In this document: piece after piece, positions 44,798 to 59,569 of the stretch
How the letters are laid out: every line of letters starts with the position of its first letter
Numbering within the stretch: the first letter of the stretch is position 1
Notes under the pieces: model-generated
What the model saw: only the letters and a program-made list of their open reading frames with translations
The model's database searches: none
Told to the model about the DNA's origin: nothing
Position numbers and translations under genes: made by a program
Assembly: GCF_900167055.1 (NCBI RefSeq)
Contig: NZ_FUXP01000002.1
Span: forward strand, 124,001 to 188,000
Direction of reading: 5' to 3'
From: Lysobacter spongiicola DSM 21749
Lineage (GTDB): Bacteria; Pseudomonadota; Gammaproteobacteria; Xanthomonadales; Xanthomonadaceae
DNA length: 64,000 bases

Positions 44798-46074
44798 AGC
44801 TGCCGCTTCGTCCGCCTTGCCTGGCCCCGTCGAACACCCGGTTCCGGAAGGCACTCGCCCCGCTGGCCATGCTGGTGGGGACGGTACTCCTGTCGGGCTG
44901 CCTGCGGGTGGCGGTGCACGGCGACCCGGAGGCCTACATGGACAATGCCGACAGCCCCCCCGGACAGGCCCTGCGCGTGGCGACCTACAACACGTCGCTG
45001 TATGAGAATGAGGCCGGCGGCCTGGTGCGCCGGCTTGCCGCACAGGATCCGGAGGCGCGCCGCATCGCGGCCCTCCTGCAGCGCACGCGGCCGGACGTCG
45101 TGCTGCTCAACGAATTCGACTACGACGCCAATGGGCGGGCGGCCGACCTGTTCCAGCGCGACTACCTCGAAGTCGCCCAACCGGGAGGCGGAGAACCACT
45201 GAGTTACCGGTATCGCTACCTCGCCCCCGTCAACACCGGCGTGCCCAGCGGGCTCGACCTGGACGGCAACGGCGAGGTCGGCGGCGCCGGTCGCGAACGT
45301 GGCAACGATGCCTGGGGCTACGGGTTGCACCCGGGGCAATACGGCATGCTGGTGCTATCGCGCCATCCGATCGACGAAGCGGGAGTTCGCACCTTCCAGC
45401 AGCTTCGCTGGAGTGCCATGCCTGGCGCACGTCGCCCGGTGGATCCGGTGACGGGCGCATCTTGGTATCCGGAACCGGTGTGGAGCCAGCTGAGGCTGTC
45501 GTCGAAATCACACTGGGACGTGCCGATCCGCAGTCCCTTGGGCACGGTGCACCTGCTGGCCGCCCACCCGACGCCGCCGGTCTTCGATGGTCCCGAGAAC
45601 CGCAATGGCCTGCGCAACGCGGACGAGATCCGCCTGTGGGCCGAGTACATCGATCCCGCCCCGGCCCCGTGGATCTGCGACGACCGGGGACGCTGCGGTG
45701 GACTGGCGGAAGACGCGTCGTTCGTGGTGGCGGGTGACTACAACGCCGACCCCTCCGACGGCGACGGCGTAGCCGGTGCGATGGCCCAGCTGCTCGATCA
45801 CCCTCGGGTCAATGCCGGCTTCGTGCCGCGCAGCGAGGGTGCGGTGCAGCGGGCAGCCGAACGGAGCGTGCCCCGGGACGGTGACGTGGCCGCCCATACC
45901 GGGGATTTCGGGCCGAAGGCAGGCACCCTGCGGCTGGACTACGTGCTGCCCTCGGCGGATCTGCAGGTGGTCGACGGCGGCGTTTTCTGGCCGCGCCCGG
46001 ACCAACCAGAGGCCGCGATCGCCGGTGCCAGCGACCACCACCTGGTCTGGCTGGACCTCAAGCGCCCGGAGTAG
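44794..46074 (+). CDS. Endonuclease/exonuclease/phosphatase-family lipoprotein
   Basis: Protein of 426 residues. A signal region ends in a lipobox (LLSGC, about residue 33), so it should be anchored outside the inner membrane. The body has the metal-dependent phosphoesterase marks [35 protein letters not shown] and [12 protein letters not shown] loop DLDGNGEVG looks like a calcium site. Substrate may be a nucleic acid or lipid phosphate. It is translated through an ATGA overlap with bpt. Its 3' end overlaps the convergent gene at 46058 by 17 bases. Confidence 0.83.
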
Positions 46075-56827: not shown

Positions 56828-58729
56828 TCAGGCGGCGTTTTCATCGCGTAAACGCGTGGCGAATTCCGAGACCGGCATCGATCCGAGATCCTCCCCTCCA
56901 CGCGAACGCACCGCCACGTGCCCGTTTTCCTTCTCGCGGTCACCGACCACCAGCAGGTACGGCACGCGCTGAAGCGTGTGCTCGCGAATCTTATAGCCGA
57001 TCTTTTCGTTGCGCAAATCAGCCTGGACCCGGAACCCTTGATCTGCAAGGGATTTCCGCACCTGCTCCACCCAGTCGGCCTGCGCATCGGTGATGTTGGC
57101 CACCACCGCCTGCACCGGCGCCAGCCAGGCCGGGAACTGGCCGGCGTGGTGCTCGATCAGGATGCCGATGAAACGCTCCATGGAGCCAACGATGGCGCGG
57201 TGCAGCATGACGGGGTGGCGCTTCTGGCTGTGCTCGTCCACGTATTCCGCGCCCAGCCGGCCCGGCATCATGAAATCGACCTGCATCGTGCCCAGCTGCC
57301 ACGTACGTCCGATCGCGTCGCGCAGGTGGTACTCGATCTTGGGGCCATAGAAGGCACCCTCGCCCGGCAGCTCTTCCCATTCCACGCCCGCCGACCGGAG
57401 GGCCGACCGCAAGGCGTCCTCGGCCTTGTCCCAGGTGGCGTCGTCGCCCAGGCGGGGCTCGGGGCGCAGCGCCAGCTTGACCTGCACGTCGGTGAACCCG
57501 AAATCGGCGTACACCTTCATCGCCTGCTGGTGGAAGGCGGTGACCTCCGGCTCCACCTGCCCTTCCGTGCAGAACACGTGGCCGTCGTCCTGGGTGAAGC
57601 CGCGCACGCGCAGGATGCCGTGCAGCGCGCCCGACGGCTCGTTGCGATGGCAGGCGCCGAACTCGCCATAGCGAATGGGGAGATCGCGGTAGCTGTGCAG
57701 GCCGTGGTTGAACACCTGCACATGGCCCGGGCAGTTCATCGGCTTCAGCGCGTAGGTGCGCTTCTCCGACTCGGTGAAGAACATGTTCTCCTTGTAGTTG
57801 TCCCAGTGGCCGGACTTCTGCCACAGGGTCACGTCGAGGATCTGCGGGCAGCGCACCTCGTCGTAGCCGGAGTCGCGGTAGACCTTGCGCATGTACTGCT
57901 CGACCACCTGCCAGATCGACCACCCTTTCGGGTGCCAGAAGATCAGGCCCGGGGCTTCTTCCTGCAGGTGGAAGAGATCCTGCTGCTTGGCGATCTTGCG
58001 ATGGTCGCGCTTCTCGGCCTCCTCCAGCTGGTTCAGGTAGGCCTTCAACTCCTTGTCGTTGAGCCAGGCGGTGCCATAGATGCGGCTGAGCATCTGGTTG
58101 TTGTGATCGCCTCGCCAATAGGCGCCGGCGACCTTCATCAGCTTGAAGGCGCGAAGTTTGTCGGTGGAAGGCACGTGCGGTCCGCGGCACAGGTCGGTGA
58201 ACTCGCCCTGGCTGTACAGCGACAGGTCCTCGTCGGCCGGGATCGACTCGATGATCTCGGCCTTGTAGTGCTCGCCGATGCCCTTGAAGAATTTCACCGC
58301 CTCGTCGCGCGATTTGACGCTGCGGCTGACCGGCTGGGCTTCCTTGACGATCTTCTTCATCTCTTCTTCGATCGCCGGCAGGTCCTCGGGTGTGAAGGGA
58401 CGCTCGAAGGCGAAGTCGTAGTAGAAGCCGTTGTCGATCACCGGGCCGATCGTGACCTGGGCCGCGGGATGCAGGCGCTGCACGGCCTGGGCCAGCAGGT
58501 GCGCGGTGGAATGGCGCAGGACCTCCAGCGCGTCGGGGTGCTTGTCGGTGACGATCTCGAGCGAAACGTCGCGATCGATGCGGAAGCCGGTGTCCACGAG
58601 CTTGCCGTCGACCTTGCCCGCCAGCGCGGCCTTGGCGAGGCCGGGACCGATCGAGGCGGCGACCTCGCCGACGGAGACGGGGGCTTCGAATTCACGGCGG
58701 GAGCCGTCGGGAAGGGTGATCGCGATCAT
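56828..58729 (-). CDS. thrS: Threonyl-tRNA synthetase
   Basis: Class II synthetase of 633 residues. The TGS domain (about 1-60), an editing domain with [11 protein letters not shown] and the zinc-site histidines (about 70-240), the catalytic core with motif 2 ([11 protein letters not shown]) and the zinc ligands, and the anticodon-binding domain are all present. The start [13 protein letters not shown] is family-typical. The leader upstream holds a threonine-rich mini frame, an antiterminator/terminator pair and REP pair C, so expression is likely under attenuation by threonine supply (see the leader entries). Confidence 0.97.
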
Positions 58730-58751
58730 GGGCGTGGTGTCTTGGCTTTAC

Positions 58752-58828
58752 GTAGGAGCGGCTTCAGCCGCGATTGGATAATCGGTCGCTTGTACGGCCC
58801 ACGGATCGCGGCTGAAGCCGCTCCTACA
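58752..58828. repeat. REP pair C (thrS leader)
   Basis: Arms at 58752-58773 and 58806-58828 carry the same sequence as pairs A and B (22-23 bases), with a 32-base unrelated spacer. It lies between the attenuator and the thrS start codon, so it is part of the leader RNA and can fold as a long hairpin. Confidence 0.9.
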
Positions 58829-58850
58829 AGGAAAAGAAGAAGCGCGGGCT

Positions 58851-58902
58851 GCACAAACAAAGGCGCCACGAGGGCGCCTGCGCAATGCGGAAGCCTCGGG
58901 CG
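58851..58902 (-). terminator. attenuator of thrS: terminator with competing antiterminator
   Basis: On the minus strand AGGCGCC-CTCGT-GGCGCCT (58861-58879) forms an intrinsic terminator followed by TTGTTTGT. Nine bases just after the leader stop codon, CGCCCGAGG (58894-58902), can instead pair with CCTCG-T-GGCG (58864-58873, one bulged T), which removes the terminator stem and loop. The two foldings exclude each other. A ribosome at the leader stop codon would cover CGCCCGAGG and let the terminator form; one stalled at the threonine codons leaves it free. Confidence 0.7.
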
Positions 58903-58905
58903 GAG

Positions 58906-58932
58906 TCAGCGATGGGCGGTGGTAGTGTCCAT
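58906..58932 (-). CDS. putative thrS leader peptide MDTTTAHR
   Basis: A nine-codon frame ATG-GAC-ACT-ACC-ACC-GCC-CAT-CGC-TGA with three threonine codons in a row, placed between the thrS promoter and the attenuator. No protein function is meant: the codons would measure charged Thr-tRNA. A GTG further upstream in the same frame would give a 20-residue version with a fourth threonine. The ribosome site is weak (GAG nearby), the main reservation. The arrangement is that of trp-, his- or thr-type leader peptides. Confidence 0.55.
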   Translation of the reverse strand: MDTTTAHR

Positions 58933-59008
58933 GTCGCACGCTCGGCCGGCGGTGTTGCCGCGGGCCACCTCGGGTTTCAGGCCCAGCCGGTTGCTGCGCC
59001 ACGTGGCC

Positions 59009-59039
59009 ATAATAGTGGACCAGCGGGATGCGAAGTCAA
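59009..59039 (-). promoter_or_regulatory. likely promoter of the thrS operon
   Basis: On the minus strand TTGACT (59034-59039) and TATTAT (59009-59014) are 19 bases apart, a wide spacing for sigma-70; a shifted -10 (CACTAT) would give 16. It lies 14 bases beyond the stop of the small gene at 59053 and gives a leader of about 275 nt before thrS. Confidence 0.55.
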
Positions 59040-59052
59040 TTCGGGTGGCGTC

Positions 59053-59334
59053 CTAGTCCCGCTCCACCATCTTGAAGAAGCGGCTGCGTTTTCCGTCGGC
59101 AGTCTGCTCCTGGTACAGGAACGCCAGGTCGTCGTCCTCGAACCTCTCGAAGAACTCGTCCCAGCTGATTCGCTTCAGGGCCGGGTCGTCGCGGAACGAA
59201 ATCCGCAACAGCGCGATTTCGTCACCATCTTCATCCACGCCCTTGGCGCTCACGGGGACACCGTCGCGGGCCTCGGCCCAACGCCGGATCTCCTCATGGT
59301 TGATCGTCGTTTTCGCTTCGTGCTTCGCTGTCAT
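59053..59334 (-). CDS. Small conserved protein of unknown function
   Basis: Protein of 93 residues with no signal peptide. Conserved-looking elements are NHEEIRRWAEARDGVPV at the start and ISWDEFFERF...LAFLYQEQTADG...SRFFK at the end. Similar proteins in other bacteria are often labelled branching enzyme by mistaken transfer; nothing here looks like an enzyme active site. GGAGG lies close before the ATG at 59334. It sits between tRNA-Val and the thrS promoter. Confidence 0.75.
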   Translation of the reverse strand: MTAKHEAKTTINHEEIRRWAEARDGVPVSAKGVDEDGDEIALLRISFRDDPALKRISWDEFFERFEDDDLAFLYQEQTADGKRSRFFKMVERD

Positions 59335-59494: not shown

Positions 59495-59569
59495 TGGTGG
59501 GCGGTACAGGGTTCGAACCTGTGACCCCTACCATGTCAAGGTAGTGCTCTACCGCTGAGCTAACCGCCC
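59495..59569 (-). tRNA. tRNA-Val (anticodon GAC)
   Basis: A 75-nt cloverleaf with acceptor GGGCGGT, anticodon loop TTGACAT giving GAC, T arm CAGGTTCGAACCCTG and encoded CCA. Confidence 0.96.

Follow-up and report, generated by a model that had tools for sequence, protein, structure and literature searches.

How is the gene for threonyl-tRNA synthetase, thrS, controlled in Lysobacter spongiicola? The question is raised by the region upstream of this gene in the window analyzed here, that is, the whole stretch of 64,000 nucleotides to which all positions below refer. A sequence-only reading of this DNA had proposed a transcription attenuator composed of a short frame rich in threonine codons (MDTTTAHR), a strand behind its stop codon and an intrinsic terminator. 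Direct reading of the letters locates all three elements exactly where they had been placed. The region comprises the following features:

59011..59039, minus strand: probable promoter, by direct sequence reading; TTGACT (59039-59034), 17 nt, ACTATT (59016-59011)
58965..58979, minus strand: strand 1, the Shine-Dalgarno-like AGGTGG (58970-58965) with its upstream flank, able to pair with strand 2
58944..58966, minus strand: hairpin H1, GGCC-C-GCGG-loop-CCGC-C-GGCC, in the interval from AGGTGG to the start codon
58930..58943, minus strand: conserved initiation region GAGCGTGCGACATG, with GAGYGTGYGACATG near-invariant in the copies
58906..58932, minus strand: leader ORF MDTTTAHR (ATG GAC ACT ACC ACC GCC CAT CGC TGA), with Thr codons 3-5 at 58926-58918 and TGA at 58908-58906
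58894..58902, minus strand: strand 2, the putative antiterminator arm CGCCCGAGG, 3 nt past the stop codon
58854..58879, minus strand: intrinsic terminator (strands 3 and 4) with a U-rich tail; stem-loop AGGCGCC-CTCGT-GGCGCCT at 58879-58861, tail TTGTTTG at 58860-58854
56828..58729, minus strand: thrS, threonyl-tRNA synthetase, 633 aa, the presumed regulated gene

The ribosome site of the frame had been described as poor, and it is indeed weak directly before the ATG; the AGGTGG strand and the conserved hairpin upstream of the frame had been overlooked. The promoter had been noted as widely spaced. TTGACT is present, and the -10 box could be either ACTATT, 17 nt from TTGACT, or TATTAT at 19 nt; if it is ACTATT, the spacing is not wide. 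A consensus promoter scan did not report the TTGACT promoter. Among the 130 copies of the leader described below, 82 contain TTGAC 15-90 nt before AGGTGG, compared with 3.9% of letter shuffles.

Downstream of thrS, the same strand carries infC-, rpmI-, rplT- and pheS-like ORFs (all gene names at this locus, including thrS, are presumed from the respective families), so that a switch in the leader may tie these translation-factor, ribosomal and pheS-like genes to threonine supply. Between the terminator and thrS, the window contains a REP-like inverted repeat, TAGGAGCGGCTTCAGCCGCGA ... TCGCGGCTGAAGCCGCTCCTA (58750-58829, minus strand), and similar repeats occupy the equivalent place before thrS in loci L083 and L084. 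On the other side of the leader, a 93-aa ORF (59053-59334, minus strand) is flanked by the leader promoter and a tRNA-Val gene (59495-59569).

The terminator stem (-12.5 kcal/mol) was also found by a terminator scan. CGCC and GAGG of strand 2 are complementary to GGCG and CCTC of the terminator, and the duplex of the post-stop region with the terminator reaches -18.8 kcal/mol, bearing out the pairing proposed from the sequence. The folding energy of the 148-nt leader is close to that of dinucleotide shuffles (z 0.21); given this ordinary energy, the window sequence alone would prove nothing. A scan of the 64 kb for ORFs of 4-12 codons with ATG, GTG or TTG starts and three consecutive Thr codons returned two, the MDTTTAHR leader and a GTG frame at 45734. 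The leader stands above chance because it is conserved among relatives.

Conservation of the leader among relatives

We derived a consensus of the element from the DNA preceding thrS in ten congeneric genomes and in named Lysobacterales loci. It consists of AGGTGGCCCGC, a variable hairpin, GGYCGAGYGTGYGACATG, NNN ACT ACC, and a stop codon after a few further codons. The element is present in nine of the ten genus members; the exception, L089, keeps the promoter and the terminator and has lost the leader and the element, so that thrS would sit there behind a constant terminator. A covariance model, R1, matches 244 of the 398 genomes of the order, spanning 56 of its 98 genera. Nearly all matches (242) fall within two families, f1 (127) and f12 (115), the other two being in f3, one of them weak (E 0.0076). 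Among the unmatched genomes listed, the f1 members are G009 and G341; the Thr leader of G341 is of another type (L245). R1 was also run on 274 genomes drawn from the class and matched 11, three from the order and eight outside it. These eight were set aside after tblastn detected no thrS in their loci; the best of them, in G446 (E 3.7e-7), has 29 nt against the model's 2 and lacks the ATG. Across 38 chosen genomes, every strong full-length match is single in its genome, and the additional matches are weak, mostly hairpin fragments.

Altogether, 145 loci fit a loose pattern of the element, and 142 of these have an ATG and at most six mismatches (L015, L204 and L212 were dropped), yielding 130 distinct copies, 102 of them found with R1 and 28 via thrS itself. 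Two loci matched by R1 but missed by the loose pattern, L004 and L005, both have ACT at codon 3; in L004, over 600 nt, including a repeat-rich stretch, separate the variant element (1323-1392) from thrS. The sample of copies leans to high-scoring matches, because only the best places among the R1 matches were fetched; to these, 30 loci were added from genomes with lower scores or double matches. In all 130 copies, the distance from the leader ATG to thrS is 93-282 nt; this proximity holds by construction for the 28 copies fetched through thrS. A tRNA T-arm pattern occurs within 140 nt of the element in 14 copies, where a tRNA directly precedes the leader.

The earlier reading had emphasized the run of three Thr codons. 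Its first two members are conserved (codon 3 in 130/130 copies, codon 4 in 118/130), and the third is not (codon 5 in 55/130). The frame has eight codons in 111 copies and 5 to 9 in the remainder; thus, at the sequence level, a short frame with cognate codons is kept together with its length and its stop. In 125 of the 130 copies codon 3 reads ACT, although ACT accounts for only 1 of the 84 Thr codons in thrS, infC, rplT, pheS and uvrB of the window. The triplet itself is therefore kept, beyond the amino acid it encodes, perhaps for its rarity or to satisfy a requirement of the RNA; R1, trained on copies nearly all of which contain ACTAC, could favor copies with Thr codons. A GTG frame through the element was considered but discarded, as its register against the ATG varies among the copies. 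The comparative check that had been suggested for this locus thus came out in favor of the attenuator: relatives keep the Thr codons, the complementary arm and, mostly, the terminator.

Terminator, antiterminator and the predicted switch

An intrinsic terminator lies between the frame and the gene in the window and in most copies; a loose test finds it in 123 of 130 and a stricter one in 23 of 28. We compared pairing energies in the 120 copies that have a terminator and at least 12 nt from the stop codon to it. The post-stop strand pairs with its own terminator at a mean of -17.5 kcal/mol, against -15.8 kcal/mol with the terminators of other copies (own better in 92/120, p 9e-12) and -14.5 kcal/mol after shuffling of the strand (own better in 108/120, p 2e-19; these and the other p values treat related sequences as independent). 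The antiterminator, which pairs with the 5' arm and the loop of the terminator, is exclusive with the terminator and is matched to it across the copies. The median distance from the stop codon to its 5' end is 3 nt, within reach of a ribosome positioned at that codon.

According to the earlier proposal, the two folds exclude each other, and a ribosome finishing the frame hides strand 2 and lets the terminator form. Masking of the 12 nt directly behind the stop codon, which mimics a ribosome at that codon, reproduces both parts in silico: the mean probability that the 5' arm of the terminator pairs inside the terminator is 0.24 in the free RNA and 0.82 under the mask, flipping the predicted fold to the terminator, compared with 0.64 and 0.78, respectively, in shuffled-strand controls. 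The mask raises this pairing by more than 0.1 in 98 of the 120 copies (31% of controls) and lowers it in two. Thus, the stop-codon half of the attenuator logic is well supported by folding models. The stall half depends, in the window, on assumptions about the ribosome, namely whether pairing across it is allowed and where the free RNA starts. With a simple mask and cross-ribosome pairing allowed, the equilibrium fold gives 0.52 for the pairing of strands 2 and 3 and 0.40 for the terminator when the ribosome stalls at codon 4, 0.02 and 0.97 when it stalls at codon 3, and a terminator probability of 0.98 for a ribosome at the stop codon and 0.86 for no ribosome. With cross-ribosome pairing forbidden, the 2:3 pairing has a probability of 0.73-0.83 for RNAs ending at 58865-58861; for RNA that includes the U-tract, the value is 0.78 with free RNA from 58908 onwards, and 0.33 (terminator 0.63) with free RNA from 58911 onwards.

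It could be asked whether the leader peptide senses Thr-tRNA but delivers its output mostly through translation or Rho rather than through the intrinsic terminator. Such an output may apply to terminator-poor copies, that is, the 7 of 130 (loose test) or 5 of 28 (stricter test) that have no terminator. It also accords with 15 Xanthomonas-type loci (g6; some near-identical) that keep the element and the Thr leader and in which, by eye, the U-tract has decayed (L022, named Xanthomonas hortorum, L149, L151, L152 and L223-L233). For the leader as a whole, this explanation appears quite unlikely, considering that the window and 123 of the copies have a terminator-like hairpin which is, on average, the best match to their own strand 2. 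The Xanthomonas-type peptide is MSTTTAHR in 11 of the 15 loci, and in L231 the frame runs on. Directly before the thrS start, these loci share, by eye, a conserved stretch with the hairpins CTGTCC..GGGCAG and GCAGC..GCTGC.

Upstream of the frame, AGGTGG is nearly invariant among the copies and complementary to the 16S tail found in the genome from which the window comes. H1 has a loop variable in length and sequence, and in a set of 31 sequences, four of its seven pairs show changes on both sides in at least one sequence. In three relatives that lack the hairpin (L014, L252 and L253), AGGTGG directly precedes the ATG (AGGTGGCACATG). AGGTGG is presumably a Shine-Dalgarno sequence that H1 bridges to the start codon.

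The same strand is also able to pair with strand 2. The per-nucleotide pairing probability between AGGTG and strand 2 is 0.48, against 0.24 in the shuffled control, and the duplex of AGGTGG and its flank with strand 2 has -12.2 kcal/mol, compared with -11.0 kcal/mol for the strands of other copies (own better in 77/130, p 5e-4) and -10.0 kcal/mol for shuffled strand 2 (own better in 94/130, p 8e-10). In 31 copies from Rhodanobacteraceae, 83% of the cells of the 1:2 helix pair, and in their alignment, A2, pairing over the whole structure reaches 89%, compared with 32-53% for slid versions; A2 contains 31 of 39 listed loci, and leaving out the 8 more divergent ones, a matter of choice, favors the 1:2 helix. 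Covariation in this helix was not above shuffles in the 31 copies. These comparisons lend moderate support to a role of AGGTGG as a protector strand that would pair with the antiterminator strand.

Taken together, it is highly probable, from conservation and folding models, that the leader is a ribosome-mediated transcription attenuator that gauges the supply of Thr-tRNA and controls thrS; that thrS is the regulated gene we infer from the sequence. When charged tRNA-Thr is ample, the ribosome would reach the stop codon and cover strand 2, the terminator would form and transcription would stop before thrS. Under a shortage of charged tRNA-Thr, the ribosome would wait at codons 3-5, leaving strand 2 to pair with strand 3, and the polymerase would enter thrS. 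On a leader devoid of ribosomes, strand 1 (AGGTGG with its flank) would hold strand 2 and the terminator would form. H1 would serve to bring the Shine-Dalgarno AGGTGG towards the start codon.

Other thrS leaders and known systems

Threonine leaders are not limited to the element. A terminator is present in 19 of 22 thrS loci of the order that lack it, and in 18 of the 19 a short ORF containing two or more Thr lies upstream of the terminator; Ser, the runner-up residue, attains this level in 26%. Such loci best address the possible bias of R1 towards copies with Thr codons. The encoded peptides (MTRTGTPD, MRTTTMAIH, MNVSFRTTT, MCQQATTTTTP, MKTTTKN and others) differ in sequence, and the antiterminators of the 18 leaders are better than shuffled (p 7e-5) and exchanged (p 1e-4) ones. 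In six of the leaders (L256, L257, L258, L259, L261 and L262), a -10-like box ends 6-7 nt upstream of the ATG, and these frames seem to be leaderless. Further families of the order and G341 share another conserved leader, near GTCGTAGTYCGAACGRACACGATCACCATG and encoding MTR(T/V/G).. (L007, L023 and L245-L250).

In Burkholderiales, the leaders before thrS include MTPRTTTKLWE, MTPRTLTETTSERR, MIQAPRTTTASERQ and MFFPPARTTTRNFRPMSR; those of L028-L063 encode Arg-Thr-Thr-Thr or Arg-Thr-Leu/Phe-Thr, and several of them carry TAGTCGAGG at the stop codon. Among 42 regions from betaproteobacteria and other gammaproteobacteria that have a terminator, 27 contain an ORF with at least two Thr, and as many contain one with at least two Arg; in the residue scan of the f1/f12 and betaproteobacterial sets, Arg is almost as frequent as Thr. 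The antiterminators of 18 betaproteobacterial leaders are no better than shuffled ones (-17.1 vs -17.2), so that Thr codons are supported in this group but the switch is not.

These loci also bear on whether the leader could instead be an RNA operator bound by ThrRS, similar to that of E. coli, with an incidental short frame. The conservation of nucleotides around the start codon beyond the needs of the leader frame would fit such an operator, and the prevalence of ACT at codon 3 hints at a constraint at the RNA level. The variable loop of H1 and the Thr codons in leaders of other RNA sequence speak against it, as does the distribution of hairpins resembling the tRNA-Thr anticodon in the last 120 nt before thrS: there are none in 28 f1/f12 loci and none in 23 other loci of the order, compared with 8 in a set of 14 loci that are unplaced or from other gammaproteobacteria (hand-picked, the hairpin rule having been written after such hairpins were seen) and a single one among 21 Thr-leader loci from betaproteobacteria. 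On balance, an operator of this kind is very unlikely. A plain terminator of the upstream tRNA-Val region or 93-aa ORF accompanied by a chance ORF, as the upstream tRNA-Val and the 14 copies with a nearby T-arm might suggest, is contradicted by the conserved codons, position, antiterminator and adjacency to thrS and can be dismissed as extremely improbable.

Returning to the attenuator, a leader-peptide device for thrS thus appears to be widely kept in two families, with other Thr leaders in most of the other loci of the order examined, and it has an unusual hairpin and a probable protector strand upstream. The order neighboring that of E. coli appears to control thrS by reading threonine codons, and its bacteria probably raise thrS when threonine is short, unlike the E. 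coli mode. The two devices, Thr leader and ThrRS operator, hardly overlap in the loci examined, which would amount to a clean regulatory replacement at an essential gene, and natural variants are at hand in the form of Shine-Dalgarno-led, hairpin-led and apparently leaderless leaders. A broader scenario can be offered tentatively, its chances falling a little short of even: attenuation by Thr-codon leaders would be the general mode of thrS control in Lysobacterales and in a large part of Burkholderiales, the Arg-Thr-Thr/Phe leaders sharing a common origin, and other gammaproteobacteria would use the ThrRS operator; in Xanthomonadaceae and Rhodanobacteraceae a second layer would have been added, a Shine-Dalgarno strand that is bridged by the hairpin and for which 16S rRNA and the antiterminator compete. 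If this is true, initiation on the leader in these two families would itself be part of the switch.

Two other modes of thrS control are known. In E. coli, ThrRS represses the translation of its own gene via an operator that contains a mimic of the tRNA-Thr anticodon, the textbook case of such control. The target gene is the same as in the leader analyzed here, but the E. coli operator is translational and relies on the mimic, which was not found in the 51 loci of the order scanned for it. In Bacillus, thrS is preceded by a T-box riboswitch that senses tRNA charging and acts by antitermination; these two properties are shared with the proposed attenuator, in which, however, sensing would be performed by a translated frame. 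The Rfam T-box model had no match in our analysis at the gathering threshold and none at E values up to 5, and a T-box-like reading of GGTGG..CCGCGG was rejected on this ground. At the gathering threshold, the Rfam matches were tRNAs, and the leader region yielded sub-threshold matches only.

In searches of the open-access PubMed Central literature, we found no account of this proteobacterial thrS leader. thrS is not mentioned in the available portion of the main text of PMC2965389, nor named in that of PMC3039613 or in PMC4603805. The attenuated short 5'UTRs of Burkholderia cenocepacia include two tRNA synthetases, given by locus tag only in the accessible part of the report (PMC5688073). The earlier statement that no peptide-type thrS attenuator had been described needs to be amended: in Streptomyces lividans, a thrL leader peptide, MKRVRPFLETTPGFVPAR, has been proposed before thrS and is described, in the accessible part of the source, as leaderless, with two Thr among 18 residues and without a clear terminator (PMC8079986). 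Both systems thus feature a proposed Thr leader peptide before thrS; judging from that partial description, the Streptomyces one is set apart as actinobacterial, leaderless and devoid of a clear terminator.

The closest parallels are the leader-peptide attenuators of E. coli, namely thrL and trpL of amino acid operons and pheM of pheST. The leader analyzed here resembles them in its short frame with cognate codons, in an antiterminator that excludes the terminator, and in a predicted logic by which a ribosome at the stop codon permits the terminator to form. It differs from them in its target, thrS, in the position of the Thr codons at 3-5, in the proposed protector strand, which lies upstream of the frame and overlaps the Shine-Dalgarno-like sequence, and in the conserved hairpin that separates this sequence from the start codon.
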